Assembly (NCBI GenBank): GCA_003008705.1 | Contig: PDUO01000016.1 | Span: 63,975-127,974, forward strand | DNA length: 64,000 nt | From: Pezicula radicicola | Taxonomy: Eukaryota > Ascomycota > Leotiomycetes > Helotiales > Dermateaceae | Direction of reading: 5' to 3' | Shown: in pieces, positions 12,962 to 52,190 of the stretch | How the letters are laid out: each line of letters begins with the position of its first letter | Numbering within the stretch: the first letter of the stretch is position 1 | Made by a program: the position numbers and the translations under genes | The notes under the pieces: model-generated | Told to the model about the DNA's origin: nothing | The model's database searches: none | What the model saw: only the letters and a program-made list of their open reading frames with translations

Positions 12962-15900
12962 ATGGACTTTCCAGAGTTCCCTAACACCTCAGGCTACTCG
13001 AAACCCCTCCCACGTCGCGAGACCGCCTCTAGCTTGCTTTCCCAATTTCTTCCTGGGGCGAAAACCGAACATAAATCAGATCTTCAGAAGTTCCACCAGA
13101 ACAAATCTCCAGTCTCTCATAACCCGCCTGCACATACGCCATACCGTATCGCACCCCCTACCACATCGTACCCTGAACCTCCTTCTCCGGCACCATATAT
13201 TGATCTCGAGGCGGAAACTGAGTCATTGGTACAACCTAAACAACAAGAAGAAGCAGACGAAGAGATTGAATACACCCCAAAGTCCAGATCGGGACGTGCT
13301 CTGCGACCTCGTTCTTCCCTTCCCAAATCTCTCAAGGCGGTAGAGAACGGAGACCAGCCGCGATCCAAGACTTCTCGAAAGTCTAAGAAGGATGCGATAT
13401 CTGACCTGGTTGGAGGAGATATTAATGGCCTCAACTTCACACCGGTGGTAAGCAAGAGAAACTTGATCAGACAAGAGATTGCAAGTCACACAGCTGCCAA
13501 TAGAAGCCGGTTTTTCGTCGAAAAGAAAGACTACTTTCTGCCTCTTTTACCACCACACAATCATGTCAAGAAGCTGGTGGAGAAGCATGAGCAGCTTTCG
13601 CCTGAGGAGATATCCAAGTTGCCAGCGATAACATCTTACGAAGAGATTGAAATGCAGCCCAAAGGCATCCAGGCAAAAATGAAACCGTATCAACTATCTG
13701 GTTTGAGCTTTATGGTCTATCTTCATCGTAACGGTTTGTCAGGTATCCTTGGTAAGTACGAGCAGTGCCTTGGGCCAGATTTCCGGCTAGCTGGTCAGGT
13801 TTAGCAGATGCTGATGTTCGCCAACAGGTGACGAGATGGGACTTGGCAAAACTCTCCAAACCTTATCGTTGATTCAGTATCTGAAGGAGAATGATCCCAA
13901 GCAAGGTTCAGGAAGACTACAACGTCCATTTTTGGTCATTTGCCCACTGTCGGTACTCAGCAGTTGGATGGGCGAGTCAAAGCGATGGGCTCCTGGACTT
14001 AAGGTCATCCGCTTCCACGGTCCGGCCAAAGAACGACTTCGTCTGAAGAAGATCATCATGGGTGAGATTGATATGTATGGCAATCCGACTGCTCAAACCA
14101 GATCCAAGCACAAGTCCAAGGTGAATCCTGCAGGCCAGACTGTGATTTCTCTTGATGAAGAGGAAGAAGATGTTGGTGTTGATGTGGTTGTTACTACCTA
14201 TGAATCCTATGCTGCCGAGGATTCCTGGTTTAAGAAGGCGTTTGTTTGGAGATATGTTGTGCTTGATGAAGGTCACAAGGTTAGAATAGAATGCCTGCCT
14301 TTTCAACCGCTACTAACATGTTCCTAGGTTAAAAACGACCAAAGCTTGATTTCCAGAAGTTTGCAGGGTCTACAGGCCGAATATCGGCTGATCTTGACTG
14401 GAACTCCTCTTCAGAACAACTTGTCAGAAGCATGGGCCTTGCTTCACTGGCTGTACCCAGAAGTCTTTATTGAGAACACGGCAGACCTTTTCCACAACTC
14501 ATTCAACCTGAGCAAGGGGCTTTATTCCAACACTGTTCTTGATGATCTCCGCCATCTCCTTGAGCTTATCATGCTGCGGCGCATGAAAACCTCCCCGGGG
14601 GTTGATCTTAACCTACCTCCCAAGACCGAAGTCCTCCTATTTGTGCCTTTGAGTCCAATGCAACGATTCTGGTACCAACGCCTTATTACAAGAGCGGATC
14701 AGGGCCTTTTAGATGAGCTATTCAAAGGTGCAAAGGACAAAGAACAGTCGGATATGGAATTAGCCAAGAAGAACGAAGCAATGGAAGCCGAGCTGATGAA
14801 GAGAGAAACCGCAGCGCTTGAAAACCTTGAGAACGAACTGGTTGTCGGTAGTGATTCATGGAAGGAGTCTCGAGAAATTTTGAAGATGACAATTCAGCGC
14901 GAACAAGAAGATCTGGACGATGTTGGTGCGAAGAAGAGTGCTTGGCAGAAACTCATGAATCTGTTGATGCAGCTGCGAAAAGTATGCAACCACCCTTACC
15001 AGATTCAATACCCAGAAGACCTTGCGCCGGGAGATCACGTTGTCACAGCATCTGGTAAATTCATCATTCTTGAGAAACTACTTAATGAGCTGGTCGTAAA
15101 GCAGAAAAAGAAGATTCTTATCTTTTCAGGATTCACAAGAATGCTTGACTTGGTCGAGGAGCTATTGCAAGTTCGAGGAGGCGATGGTTCAAGTTATAGA
15201 TTTGTCCGCCTGGATGGAGGCACTGGTAGAGCACGTCGAAACCTTGGTATTCGGATGTTCAACGATACCAACAGTGAATACCGTGTTATGCTAATCTCTA
15301 CACGAGCTGGAGGCCTTGGAGTTAATTTGGCTACTGCTTCTGATGTTGTCCTTCTAGACCAAGATTGGAACCCCCAAATCACACTTCAAGCCGAAGCACG
15401 AGCTCACAGGATTGGCCAGAAGAACCCGGTCACTATTTATAAGCTGGTCTCACAGGGTACCGTCGAAGAGCAAATGATGGGACGTATCCAGAAGAAGCTC
15501 TATCTCTCAGCTAAGGTCACCGAGGCCATGGAAGACATTCATACCAAGTCAGGTGTTCGATCTGGCAAGGGCAAGGGTAAGGGTAGACCTGCAGCAACCG
15601 ATGAAGAGAAGGGCCCCCAACTTGGTACTAGTGAACTCATGGCACTTGTTCGACGAGGTGCTTCTGCAATTTCACGACCTGAAATTGATGTCAATGAGAT
15701 GCTTGACTGGTAGGTTCTGTCCGGCTCTGCAATATCCCGCGCCATTCACTAACCAATCATAGGGACTGGGCGACTACCGTTGCAAAGTGCAAGGACCAGC
15801 CAGCAGATATTAATGTCAAGAAAGATGCATTACCTGACCTCGAGGTTGATGAAGAGGCAGAGAAAAAGTGGCTGACGGAAATGGAGAGAGTTGAAGCATC

Positions 15901-34048: not shown

Positions 34049-34064
34049 GCTCCTTTAGCTCAGT

Positions 34065-34121
34065 GTAAGCAACTACCACACAACAAAATATTCACCTCGT
34101 TTACTGACTCTGTACTTACAG
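34065..34121 (+). other. intron-like insertion in the tRNA D-loop (spliceosomal type)
   Basis: 57 bases beginning GTAAGC and ending CTTACAG, with TTACTGAC (34101-34108), a good fungal branch site, 13 bases before the 3' AG. All three signals match the mRNA introns of neighbouring genes. The ends are also complementary: TGTAAG at 34064-34069 can pair with CTTACA at 34115-34120. Spliceosomal removal is inferred, not shown. Confidence 0.7.
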
Positions 34122-34141
34122 GGTAGAGCGGAAGATTGCAG

Positions 34142-34154
34142 TAACTAGCAATTT
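34142..34154 (+). other. canonical tRNA intron (after position 37)
   Basis: Thirteen bases, TAACTAGCAATTT, placed one base 3' of the anticodon as in other eukaryotic nuclear tRNA introns. It would be removed by the tRNA splicing endonuclease. Confidence 0.8.
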
Positions 34155-34190
34155 ATCTTCAGGTCAATCGTTCGAACCGGTTAGGGAGCT

Positions 34191-34621
34191 ACCTGATTTC
34201 ATTCTTTTCTCGCTTGGTTTTTTGAATGGGAGATTTGGGACGTTGTGTTGGGGTGGTTTTTTTTTGGTTTAGAGCGTTTTGGGGGCTAAGCGAGTTCGTC
34301 CGAGGTTTAACCAGCTTGGATTTTATTGTGGCTTCAAACTGCCTATCATGATCATGGAGAAGCTGTTCTTGAATTTGAATTTGCATTTGAATTTTGTTTA
34401 ATATTTGACAAAGGTAAATATGTGCGAGAATACCCATTCCATATCCAAAACCATGTATCTTTCCGCTTTGTCATGGCCGGAAGCACCAAAAAATTTCCAT
34501 AGGTCGAAACCAAACCTTTCAAAGATCCAACGCCATCGCTATGCTAGAATAACCCAACCCATATTTCCACAAATCCATCCAAGTTTCACCAACCCTAAAT
34601 GCCAAGGGCTAATACACGGTA
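34191..34621. other. tRNA 3' flank and protease-like gene 3' region
   Basis: Contains the likely polymerase III stop signals directly after the tRNA, then spacer. A minus-strand frame (34437-34189) rich in Gln and Lys has no recognisable domain. Confidence 0.5.
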
Positions 34622-43588: not shown

Positions 43589-46500
43589 ATGCAATCCGAG
43601 CTCCCTGAAATTTCCATACGCGCACTAGACACAACCACCACATCAGCACCCTCCACCTCTACCCAATATGGCATTCAACCTCACCAGCTGCCCTCCGCAG
43701 GCTCGTATAGCCCTCTCCATGGAGAAGAGCGAAGTGTGTCTAGAGGATCAAGCTCTGCGGTCAACGCGATTGATGCGTCATTTCCCGAGGGCCACGCCCT
43801 CGAGGAGCAATTACGCCGATTGAAAATGGCCGATAACAAGGAGAGCACCCGTCCCAAACCATCTTTTCAGCGCATCTCAGAATATGAAAACGCGTTGTCC
43901 CCTAGTCCTCCGCGGACTAATAGCAACGGACCTGGATTCAAAATTGTGAAGAAGAAAGGGAGCAGACTCGATGGACCACGTCTTGATATGTTTCCAAATG
44001 GTACAGATGCCTGCAAACTCCCTTGTACATGTGCTCCTCATTCTAATGTATCATAGAGGTCTTGACCCACATTCTGTCGCATCTACCTGCTACATCACTT
44101 TCGTCAGTGTCGCTTGTGTCCCGCAGATTCTACAGTCTTGTCACAACTCCTCATGCCTGGCGTATTGCATTTTCACGCTTCTTTCCAGGACAGGATGCCA
44201 TCGAAGGTGTTCCGTTGTCGCAAATGAACCGCCGCGCATCTGACCAGGAAGAAAGAGATGACTTGCGCGCCGAACAGCGACTTTTCACTCGACTGACAGC
44301 GCTTGCCTCCTGGCGTAGCGAGTATATACTGCGAACAAGACTCCTCAGAAGCCTTTCTCGTGGAAAGCCGGCCCAGATTGCACCAGGCCATGGCGCATCC
44401 TCGCGGTCAAACAGTGCAGCCAACAATGCTAATGCTGTTGTCACGTACAGTTCACAGTTGTTCTCAACAGTCAACCACATCCATGCCATTTTCAAAAATG
44501 GGAAGAAATCGCCACGCTTTATTCATGGCACTGACGAAACTGGATCTGCTTGCACTAGTGATCCTAATATTGGTAAGATTGATAATTGGGGTCTTTCTGA
44601 CCCACAGTCCCTCCCACAGTTCTCAGAGCTCTTTGTTGGTGATATCCCGTATGGACTTGGAGATGGCCCTGCTGGTCTTCCCAATTCAATGGACGTCAGT
44701 CAGCCGTTTGGCCTACTTTACGGGGAAGGCTTCCCTGGAGGTCAAGCTTATTACCGAGCATCGGATGAAATGCGTGGACGTTTCTTGGGCCAAGCAAATG
44801 CGAATGACATCTCAGACCCCGCGATCGGGATCCCCAGAATCCCAGGTCTTACCGAAGCAATCTCTGCTGTCTGGATTGCCAAATCAGCTTCTTTCACCGG
44901 AATCACGGATAACCTAGTAGGAATCTTGACTGGATCTACTCTGGGGATCATTACTGCCTATTCTCTCGGTGGGGACAGTCTTCAGGGGCGTCGCATTGGA
45001 AGGGGTCAAGTAACCGCAAGATGGATCCTGAGTCCTGGAGTTCCCATCATTCACCTCAAGGTCGACGACTCTTATAATACGAATCGTAAAGCAGCTGGTC
45101 GGATCTGGGCTGTGGCACTGAATGCTCTTGGCGAGGTCTTCTACCTTGCCGAGCCACCGTCATCTCCACTTGTTGATGCAAAGCTAGATGACCGCACCAC
45201 AATCAGAAATGCATGGGAAGCTGGACGTACTGTCTACTGGAAGTTGGCTGAACCAACACGACGGGAAGCACGCGAGGATCCTTACCGTGAGGCGCAGATC
45301 CATGGAAGCTATTCGCCAAGATCTTCCTCGACATCTATGAATTTGTCCAAGGAGCAGATTACCGCGGAGACTTTAGAAATAGAGACCTTTTTGAAGTACC
45401 AACCGTCACACTTCAGAAAGTTGTGCGAAGGATGGGACATGCGCCGAAGGCTCGAGGTTGACTTTGCGGGTGATGACGGAAATGGTGCTGGGGAAGCTAT
45501 CTTTGTGATCAGATGTGGCTTTGATGGTGTGCATTCCGAGATCAAAAGATTCACCAGATGGAAATCTGAGCAAGCTTCATTCGAAGAGTATCCACAGCCA
45601 AAAACTCCCCCTATGACATCAGAAGGCGCACCCATGGCGTCGCTGTTTGGAGGTGGTAGGGTGACTGCACCAATTCGGACTGCGTCTCCTGTCCGATCGC
45701 CGATACGCAGCCCTCCGGTGAAGAACGGTTCATCGATTTTGGTTGAGGAGTGGCGTTCTTCACTTCTCTCTCTGAAGGATCACCCGTTGGTTGAGATCAC
45801 TGCAAGCGCCATCGATATGTCTACTTACGCTCTCTTGACGGTTGCAGAAGACCCTCTTCGCACAGCCAATGGTAGCTCAACCATCTCTTCGCCCTTTGCT
45901 ACCCCAGCAACAGACACTTCCTCAACCTTTGGAGACGTTCCTGGACATCGTGCTCGCTTTCTGGCTATTGGTACGAAAAGCGGATCCGTTGTGATGTGGA
46001 ATATGCGTGGTCCTCAGTCGACAAACTCTGCATTGGTAAACGAGTTGCGTCCTGTGCGGAACATTCAAACAGACTCCCCTCAAATATCGTGCCTCGCAGT
46101 TTCGGCGCTGTACATTGTGCACGGTGGCAATGATGGACTTGTGCAAACTTGGGATCCTCTTGGTTCAACCCTCCTACCAATTCGGACACTCAACTCCCGC
46201 TTTTCGTCTCGCGCTCGACGTCGGCTCGTCCAAGCTGAAGCATCGATTCAAGGAGTTGGTATCAATCTCTATGCTGCTGGGGCAATCGCAATTGATCCAG
46301 ATCCTACAGTCTTGCGAGGTATGGTCTCTCTTGGCACCCACCTACGATACTGGTCTTACAGTTCCTCTGCGGCCGATCAGTACACAAGTAAAAAGCGAAA
46401 GCTCCGTCGTTCAGGTGAGCGTGGCAGCAATGCTGGTCCAGACCGGTTCACAAGCACTGGAAGAGGTGCATTGATGGATTATATCGCAACCGAACAAGAA

Positions 46501-49200: not shown

Positions 49201-50457
49201 TCATAACTTCGAAGGAACCCACTTCGGAACCCTCTTCTCCGTAAAAGCTGCTAACCCCTCCTTAACATTCTCACCCCCCATAAGCCTCTCCGCATACATA
49301 TCAAGGGTAATTTGCGAGGCCCTTTCCACACTAGCAGTCTCCCAAGCCTGTCTAACACCAGCCCTACTAACAACAACACTATCCGGACTCATCCCCGCAA
49401 TCAAACTCGCCATCTCCACAGCCTCCCCAACCAACTTATCTGGCAAAACAATCTTCTGCACTAATCCCCACTGAACCGCTTCTTCAGCTTTAAGAGTATA
49501 ACCTGTTAATGCTAATAACATAGCACGTTGTAATCCAAAGTTTCGACAGATTCGAGGGAATGCTCCGGACATTGCAGCGGTTCCTCGAAGCACATCTGGG
49601 AGTCTGAAATTGGCGTTGGGGGAAGCTAGGACGATGTCACTGTTTAAAATTATTTCGAAACCGCCCCCGTGGGCGTGTCCGTTGCAGGCGCTTATTATGG
49701 GCTTTTTGCCTAGGCGTTGGGTTAGACCTCCGAAGCCGTTGGGTGGGTATCGGATTTTTCGGGTGTCGTAGTTGGGATCGAAGGGTGAGACTGTTGTTTG
49801 GCGTTCTTTTTCGGTGGGGTTTTTTGTTAGCTTTTGGGTCTTTTCTTCTTCTTCTTGTCTTTCGTGTGTGATGATGCAGAGGTGTGTTCTATTGAGTGTG
49901 GTGGATGCAGCTGGAATTACTGAAACCAGCCTTGATGATTGAGATATAACGAGAGTATCAGTATCATCAAATATCAACTTGATAAATGAGATGAGGCTCA
50001 AGCAATTCAATATCAAAATTTCTCAAACCCCAAAAGAAAAGAAAATGATTCGAAACCGATTAACAATTACAACAAATAAAACTCAGAATTACTTCTCACC
50101 TTTAAGATCCATTCCAGCTGAGAAAGCTTTATTCCCAGCTCCAGTAACAATACCAACGCGACTATATTTCACACATCCAAAAATCAGTATACGTTAGTTA
50201 AAACTATTAGGATATCGCTTCCTTGCCACCAAATTCCTATAAATTGAAGCTTGACACGGAAGGGGTATAACATACAGTTCAGGCTCCTGATCAAACCACT
50301 TCCAAACTCGATCCATCTCCCAACAAGCATCTACAGGCAAGGAATTCATCTGGCTTGCTAAATTGATCGTCACGAGAAGTACATATGGAGCTGGTATTTC
50401 TACAAGGACGTATTTTGTGGGTGGAATTGGTGTTTTTGTCTGCGGTGGTGTTGCCAT
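49201..50457 (-). CDS. peroxisomal enoyl-CoA hydratase/isomerase-family protein (copy 1)
   Basis: Three exons (50457-50276, 50161-50100, about 49919-49201) give about 320 residues; the exact start of exon 3 is uncertain (49919 or 49910). The crotonase fold is shown by VGIVTGAGNKAFSAGMDLK (oxyanion-hole strand) and ACNGHAHGGGFEIILNSD, which carries the first catalytic Glu. The second catalytic position, usually PE, reads LPDV, an Asp. An unusual charged insertion rich in Glu/Lys separates the two blocks. The last residues, PSKL, form a type-1 peroxisomal signal. Role: hydration (or isomerisation) of an enoyl-CoA in peroxisomes. It is the outermost member of a four-gene cluster, in tandem with a paralogue, and has a CCTCGG hexamer 388 bases upstream. 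Confidence 0.85.
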
Positions 50458-51086: not shown

Positions 51087-52190
51087 TCACAACTTACTAG
51101 GAACCCAAACCGGATCTTTCTTCCCAGCAAAAGCATCAAGACCAATCTTCATATTCGGACTCCCAAGAAGAGCACGATCAAACCTTTCCGAAGTCCTTAA
51201 ATAAGCCATCTCAACGCTACCTTCATTCCAAGACTCTCTCAATCCATGTCTCGTCACGATAATAGAATCAGGAGAGATACTTGCTATCTTCTCTGCAATT
51301 TCTAATGTTTCTGAGATTAGTGATTCGGGTGTTTGGGAGATTTTGTTGATCAGATGGAAGGATTGGGCTTCTTTGGCTGTTAGTCTTCGGCCTGTTAAGG
51401 CTATTTCCGAACCGATTTGTAGACCGCAGTTGCGGACTATCCGGGGGAGTCCTCCTGTCGTGAGAGAGTTGAGATTAGTTTGGATTTTTGGAATTGAGAG
51501 GGTTGTTTAAATTGAGTGAAATGCTCGAGTCAAGTAGGCTGGTTACTCAAATATAAAATAGAGGCAATGGGTAATAAAGTTGAAGGATTTAATTCTGCTC
51601 TGAGGAATCGAATACGTACCAGCACCAGCATATAAACCAACAGTAGCTTCAGGTAATCCAAAAGAAGCAGTAGGTGAAGCAACCACCATATCACTACAAG
51701 TAAATCAGTACTCCATCACCCGAATAAATACCCTAACACCCCAACCAAACATAAACATAAATTACAAAAAGAACACAAAACAAAAAACCTACCAATTCAA
51801 ACAAGTCTCAAACCCCCCACCAAGAGCAAACCCATTAACAGCAGCCAAAATAGGTTTCTTCCCAGCCCTCCTACTAATACCCAAAAACCCAGCCGACGGA
51901 TGCTTTCTTGCAGACATGGGCGGAGGCTCGATTTTCCATTGTGCTAGCTCGATAAGATCTTGGCCTCCACAGAATGCCTTTTTACCTGCTCCTGTGATGA
52001 TTGCTACACGTAGACTCGGCTCTGTGTCGAACCAGTCAAAGATTTCTTGTGATTCCCAATGTGCGGACATGGGGATTGAGTTCATTGCTTGAGGGCGGTT
52101 GATGGTTACGAGGAGGATGTGTTGGGATGGGTAGGTGAGGTTGAAGTTGGTGGTGGGCGGTGGTGGCTTTGTTTGGAGGTTTGATGCCAT
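51087..52190 (-). CDS. peroxisomal enoyl-CoA hydratase/isomerase-family protein (copy 2)
   Basis: Three exons (52190-51793, 51693-51620, 51454-51087) give 279 residues, the usual length of the family. Motifs: VAIITGAGKKAFCGGQDL for the oxyanion hole and ALGGGFETCLNCDMVVASP with the first catalytic Glu. LPEATVGLYAGAGGLPRI carries the second Glu, so both catalytic residues are present. The C-terminus PSKL is a type-1 peroxisomal signal. The protein resembles copy 1 along its whole length, so the pair arose by duplication. It shares a 458-bp divergent promoter with the acyl-CoA dehydrogenase gene, indicating joint regulation and consecutive steps: dehydrogenation, then hydration. Confidence 0.9.

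Follow-up and report, generated by a model that had tools for sequence, protein, structure and literature searches.

A tRNA-Cys gene with two kinds of intron

The window analysed here is a 64,000-nt stretch (C55:63975-127974) from the genome of a Helotiales fungus that comprises 61,044,626 bases in 152 contigs. At positions 34049-34190 of its forward strand the sequence reads as a tRNA-Cys(GCA) gene with complete stems, running from G1 at 34049 to U73 at 34190. Exon 1 (34049-34064, 16 nt) supplies the 5' strand of the acceptor stem, T8-A9, the 5' strand of the D-stem and the first D-loop bases, and is the same in the two paralogues described below. It is followed, immediately 5' of G18-G19, by an mRNA-type D-loop intron of 57 nt (34065-34121) that begins with GTAAGC and ends with TTACAG, and that carries a branch-point motif TACTGAC (34102-34108) whose branch A, at 34107, lies 14 nt upstream of the intron end. 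The first part of exon 2 (34122-34141) holds the remaining D-arm and the anticodon stem and loop up to position 37, with the anticodon GCA at 34138-34140. A canonical intron of the tRNA-endonuclease type (34142-34154, 13 nt) then interrupts the gene at 37/38, with borders set by the cloverleaf (ARAGORN sets it 1-2 bases later). The last exon (34155-34190) contains position 38, the 3' strand of the anticodon stem, the variable loop, the T-arm with the B box, the 3' strand of the acceptor stem and U73. Downstream on the same strand a T6 run at 34218-34223 is a likely pol III terminator, and an additional T4 run is found at 34205-34208.

In the raw window neither ARAGORN (several settings) nor Rfam reported a tRNA. 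Upon excision of 34065-34121 ARAGORN called tRNA-Cys(gca) with a 13-nt anticodon-loop intron, and the position, the insert span and the intact tRNA-Cys(GCA) of the preliminary description are thereby confirmed together with the reading of the sequence itself. Since ARAGORN alone tolerates many borders (117 of 5166 test excisions of 40-80 nt in the window gene also yield tRNA-Cys), the intron borders rest on an uninterrupted paralogue.

Searching the genome at the DNA level revealed three tRNA-Cys genes, two of them interrupted (the window gene on C55 and a copy on C63) and one uninterrupted (C2). In the uninterrupted copy (C2:394628-394712) CAGT is joined to GGTAG exactly at the proposed junction, and the 5 differences from the window gene among 85 positions all fall inside the canonical intron. 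The second interrupted copy (C63:335500-335652, minus strand) carries a different insert, of 63 nt, at the same point, with GTAAGC, ACAG and, at the place matching the branch motif of the window gene, TACTAAC. The mature sequences of the two interrupted genes are identical (72/72) and their intron interiors are 62% alike (shuffles 51%); the two copies can be distinguished by their canonical introns, which are not the same. Because a different insert with the same signals occupies the same site in an identical mature sequence, the insert of the window gene is not a chance feature. The look at other tRNA-Cys genes proposed in the preliminary description thus yielded one diverged insert at the same site and one gene with none, and the splice signals it had listed (5' GTAAGC, branch site, ACAG) proved correct. 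That description had left a choice between removal by the spliceosome and a recent intron transposition. Comparison across all the interrupted tRNA genes described below strongly supports the spliceosomal reading at the level of sequence, and a recent transposition is not supported for tRNA-Cys because the two paralogues share the site while their interiors have diverged this far.

Interrupted tRNA genes in eight isoacceptor families

The window gene is not alone. At least 15 tRNA genes carrying GTAAG[CT]...AG introns of 50-64 nt emerged from an intron-tolerant scan; they belong to 8 isoacceptor families, and their introns occupy seven non-canonical sites. The scan script required a T-arm, acceptor pairing and T8 and allowed long inserts. 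Its loci were the best Rfam tRNA candidates (63 of 2516 scored) and the matches of four exact B-box words, and the census is a lower bound. Matches of the four words were read as sequence in 25 of 25, 56 of 56, 32 of 34 and 20 of 29 cases; among the 9 unread matches of the fourth word, 2 are full-length Rfam matches of uninterrupted length. The scan gave 93 distinct tRNA-like places, a few of them chance or out-of-register matches, with 69 of at most 114 nt and 24 longer ones. Fifteen carry an mRNA-type intron; 9 of the 24 places above 114 nt do not, and two or three of these seem to be chance or out-of-register matches. An artefact of the scan as the source of the interrupted genes was rejected, as 20 long matches with the intron grammar occurred in the real, redundant loci and 0 in one reversed and three shuffled sets.

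The following counts refer to copies read as sequence, with site numbers and some isoacceptor names assigned by us from the cloverleaf. Interrupted copies make up 2 of 3 for Cys(GCA), directly before G18, 3 of 4 for His(GUG) at site 22/23 and 4 of 4 for Leu(AAG) at site 9/10. For Leu(CAA) it is 1 of 3 (site 11/12), for Pro(AGG) 1 of 2 (site 9/10) and for Arg(UCU) 1 of 3 (site 10/11). Arg(ACG) is interrupted in 1 of 6 copies, in the T-stem at 52/53, and Val(UAC) in both copies found, in the variable loop at 47/48. Judging by where matches end in the searches, Leu(AAG) may have one further interrupted and one uninterrupted gene, and Pro(AGG) two further interrupted ones. Among the copies found, Val(UAC) is the one case in which the tRNA could come entirely from interrupted genes, and we do not claim any interrupted gene as essential. 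Near the tRNA-Arg(UCU) genes we also observed a partial copy of an interrupted gene (L016:1755-1805, minus strand; C62:85315-85365), in which the end of an mRNA-type intron and the first part of exon 2 (query 47-97, 92%) are followed by unrelated sequence.

With introns of up to 60 nt allowed, ARAGORN called 0 of the 15 genes unexcised and all 15 after excision, each with a complete cloverleaf. In two of these genes, Leu(AAG) copy 2 and Leu(CAA), the anticodon it then gave differed from ours, because ARAGORN sets the canonical intron in another register. When introns of up to 120 nt were allowed, three unexcised genes were called with wrong identities, namely Val(UAC) at L038 and L039 and Arg(UCU) at L016:488; several intron-rich copies are misnamed by the program. 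Finders that allow only anticodon-loop introns miss or misname such genes, and interrupted tRNA genes may therefore be commoner than annotation shows. One exact intron-bearing pattern each for Cys and His was not found in viral_contigs, nor was one exact pattern for Leu(AAG) in genome_contigs, both collections not being meant for fungi.

Intron grammar and comparison with mRNA introns

All 15 inserts start with GTAAG[CT], a 5' splice site complementary to U1 and U6, and end with AG, and in all 15 a branch motif [CT]T[AG]A[CT] places its A 10-17 nt before the 3' end. Shuffled interiors would give this motif in 1.84 of 15 cases and 0 of 100000 simulations reached 15, while the stricter CTAA[CT] is present in 11 of 15 against 0.73 expected; family members are related, so that the independent number is nearer 8 than 15.

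For comparison we attempted 8 distinct mRNA introns of the window, of which 5 were placed and 3 did not resolve. Three belong to an SNF2-type gene on the plus strand. Those at 13752-13827 (76 nt) and 14280-14327 (48 nt, motif TACTAAC) have their branch A 13 and 11 nt before the intron end, respectively, and were each placed by reading frame and a conserved motif; the third, at 15710-15762 (53 nt, motif CACTAAC, branch A at 10 nt), was placed by frame only. The other two were placed by homologues aligned on both sides, P0001 for a 56-nt intron of an F-box gene (44001-44056, plus strand, motif TTCTAAT, branch A at 10 nt) and P0121 for a 114-nt intron of an enoyl-CoA hydratase gene (50162-50275, minus strand), where the closest branch candidates are 22 and 32 nt away from the 3' end. 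The resemblance to nearby mRNA introns asserted in the preliminary description is a fair one, with the branch A at 10-13 nt in four of the five. The sizes also match, the tRNA inserts measuring 50-64 nt and the five mRNA introns 48, 53, 56, 76 and 114 nt, and the 5' splice sites are if anything cleaner in the tRNA genes (GTAAG in 15/15) than in the mRNA introns (GTACA, GTATG, GTAAG, GTTAG and GTAGG).

The proteins of the window are closest to those of Coleophoma crateriformis (F-box 75%, Golgi apyrase 84% and enoyl-CoA hydratase 76% identity) and also of Phlyctema vagabunda, both Dermateaceae within the Helotiales. On the minus strand two enoyl-CoA hydratase-type genes that are related to each other are neighbours, at 51090-52190 and 49204-50457.

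Group I and group II introns have a large catalytic RNA core; at 50-64 nt the inserts are far below the size of either, and the window has no Rfam match. The canonical intron at 37/38 differs from the mRNA-type inserts in site, length, signals and pairing. It is present, in our register, in 14 of the 15 interrupted genes, the exception being Arg(ACG) L141 on C2, which has the T-stem mRNA-type intron and is without the 37/38 intron found in the other five copies read. The mRNA-type inserts themselves occupy seven sites other than 37/38, the position of endonuclease introns in eukaryotic nuclear tRNA genes.

Conserved exons, drifting introns and flanking signals

Within families, the mature tRNA of interrupted genes is 100% identical in 8 of 11 pairs and 93% in the other 3, which all involve Leu(AAG) copy 2. 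The interiors of the mRNA-type introns are 55-69% alike within families, compared to 50-56% for shuffles. Judged by these comparisons, the mature part of interrupted tRNA genes appears to be under purifying selection. Canonical introns range from 45 to 94% within families and, in the case of Leu(AAG) and His, are often more alike than the mRNA-type introns.

Filled and empty sites can be compared directly in further families. The His genes L088 and L089 are identical over 98 of 98 nt apart from the intron, with a related 3' flank (63/78), and two inverted Pro copies in L024 are identical over 94 of 94 nt apart from the intron. Uninterrupted copies of Cys, His, Leu(CAA), Pro and Arg(UCU) have kept the canonical intron, as would fit an mRNA-type intron that is spliced first and was lost through RNA; a simple gain fits equally.

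Flanks were analysed for the 10 of 15 interrupted genes with enough flanking sequence, and the set of ordinary tRNA genes left out those named SeC, Tyr, Trp and Asp by ARAGORN as likely misnamed. A run of five T within 60 nt downstream is present in 10 of 10 interrupted genes, 44 of 46 ordinary genes and 8.2% of random places. The number of CAA in the 40 nt upstream is 3.7 for interrupted genes, 3.3 for ordinary ones and 0.8 at random, and a TATA-like word is found in 0 of 10 interrupted and 5 of 46 ordinary genes. These flanks favour transcription by pol III, beginning upstream of exon 1. Counting against pol III, the A box, at its usual position in tRNA genes, is split in Cys, Leu(AAG), Leu(CAA), Pro and Arg(UCU), whose introns lie at 9/10 to 16/18. 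In Arg(ACG) the last G of the intron keeps the B-box word GGTTCGATCCC intact, and it was through that word that this copy was found. About 40 nt after tRNA-His are nearly identical at L088 and L092, on different contigs, and push the first T5 to 54 and 51 nt downstream.

How the introns may be removed and where they came from

We consider it very likely, on the strength of these genomic comparisons, that spliceosomal-type introns occur in functional tRNA genes of this fungus. The window locus itself is in all probability a working nuclear tRNA-Cys(GCA) gene with a U2-type spliceosomal intron in its D-loop, one of at least 15 such genes in 8 families. What explains the data best is that the spliceosome removes these introns from pol III precursors, with the splicing, the machine, the polymerase and the order of events all inferred from the sequence. 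RNA polymerase III would make a leader-containing precursor ending at the T-run, in which U1 and U6 would read GTAAGC and U2 would read TACTGAC. The spliceosome would then join CAGU to GGUAG and so restore the D-loop, tRNA endonuclease and ligase would next remove the 13-nt intron, and end trimming and CCA addition would come last.

Could the tRNA splicing endonuclease cut out the inserts instead, as ectopic tRNA introns whose GT...AG borders are incidental? In Cyanidioschyzon merolae and in nucleomorphs ectopic introns are described in the D-arm, the T-arm and other parts of the tRNA, sometimes together with a 37/38 intron (PMC4090602, PMC3978253, PMC9602550). Those of algae and nucleomorphs are cut by the endonuclease through folds like the bulge-helix-bulge (BHB) and are often very short, and many of the nucleomorph ones have no clear BHB (PMC4090602, PMC3978253). 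The inserts described here are 50-64 nt long with splice sites and a branch motif, and if the endonuclease removed them there would be no reason for all 15 to share GTAAG[CT], AG and a positioned branch motif. None of the 15 inserts has a strict BHB geometry (at least 3 of 4 central pairs), as against 18 of 43 canonical introns; the test is blunt, given that fewer than half of the canonical introns pass it and that the 43 include relatives and a few misnamed calls. If one-base shifts are freely allowed, 9 of 15 inserts reach 3 or 4 of the 4 central pairs, so that pairing alone does not decide. We consider removal by the endonuclease very unlikely.

A different doubt concerns the genes rather than the enzyme, namely that the interrupted copies are dead or remain unspliced and the tRNAs come from uninterrupted paralogues. 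Cys, His, Leu(CAA), Arg(ACG), Arg(UCU) and Pro each have such a paralogue among the genes read as sequence, and one is inferred for Leu(AAG). The cell need not use the interrupted tRNA-Cys genes, because one uninterrupted tRNA-Cys exists. The preliminary description had raised a dead copy for the case that no spliced transcript exists and there are several uninterrupted tRNA-Cys(GCA) genes; of the latter there is one, on C2, and the genes do not look like dead copies. Mature parts stay fully identical in most interrupted pairs while the introns drift, terminators and upstream CAA are kept, and both Val(UAC) copies found are interrupted. We regard it as extremely improbable that these genes are dead or unspliced. 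As for origin, the introns could be introners, mobile elements that inserted into tRNA genes in recent times. Fungi are known to have introner-like elements (PMC4457414), and precise filled and empty sites at seven positions would suit them. No intron matched an intron of another family, at E values up to 1, in about 364 kb of partly redundant locus sequence, and shared sites with diverged interiors within families point to age, which leaves a recent mobile origin unlikely.

Returning to spliceosomal removal, it is probable that two splicing systems act on the same tRNA precursors in this Helotiales lineage, the endonuclease at 37/38 and the spliceosome on introns wherever they lie in the tRNA body, with several isoacceptors then dependent on the spliceosome. 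If this is true, the supply from both Val-UAC genes found and from most Leu-AAG and His genes read would hang on the spliceosome. Translation capacity would be tied to mRNA splicing, and pol III transcripts would be ordinary targets for spliceosomal intron gain.

Relation to known systems

mRNA-type introns were reportedly described in fungal 18S rDNA by Rogers et al. in 1993 (cited in PMC11782384). The tRNA introns would resemble them as spliceosomal-type introns in an ascomycete structural RNA, with the difference that the 18S introns reside in a Pol I rRNA and not in a tRNA.

The U6 gene of Schizosaccharomyces pombe has an mRNA-type intron that is spliced from a pol III RNA (PMC10484740), and is alike in having a spliceosomal-type intron in a short non-coding RNA of this polymerase. 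The U6 case concerns one spliceosomal RNA and is explained by reverse splicing near the catalytic site, unlike the 15 tRNA genes in 8 families and at seven sites found here. Eukaryotic tRNA genes are described as 'limited to one intron', removed by a protein endonuclease (PMC8450103), and spliceosomal introns in tRNA genes would break this rule.

Each half of the observation is thus known, spliceosomal introns in non-coding RNA genes on one side and oddly placed tRNA introns on the other, and their union in nuclear tRNA genes is not known from the open literature searched. The preliminary description had known of no nuclear tRNA with such introns, and our search, which covered mainly open-access papers, likewise found no report of spliceosomal introns in nuclear tRNA genes. 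If our reading is true the spliceosome would be seen at work on short pol III RNAs, and the filled and empty sites offer natural material for the study of intron gain and loss.

Other tRNA-like places with long inserts

Some places recovered by the scan have long inserts of another kind. The anticodon loop of an Ile(UAU)-like tRNA at L040 (C109:672923-673077, minus strand) contains about 80 nt of inserted sequence, flanked by a repeated ACTT and folding into long hairpins; this insert is neither an mRNA-type nor an ordinary canonical intron. Five further tRNA-like places of 117-161 nt (L037, L091, L102, L116 and L158) have, around the anticodon loop, long inserts of another type than GTAAG...AG. 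They are possibly tRNA-derived repeats, degenerate genes or carriers of another kind of intron.
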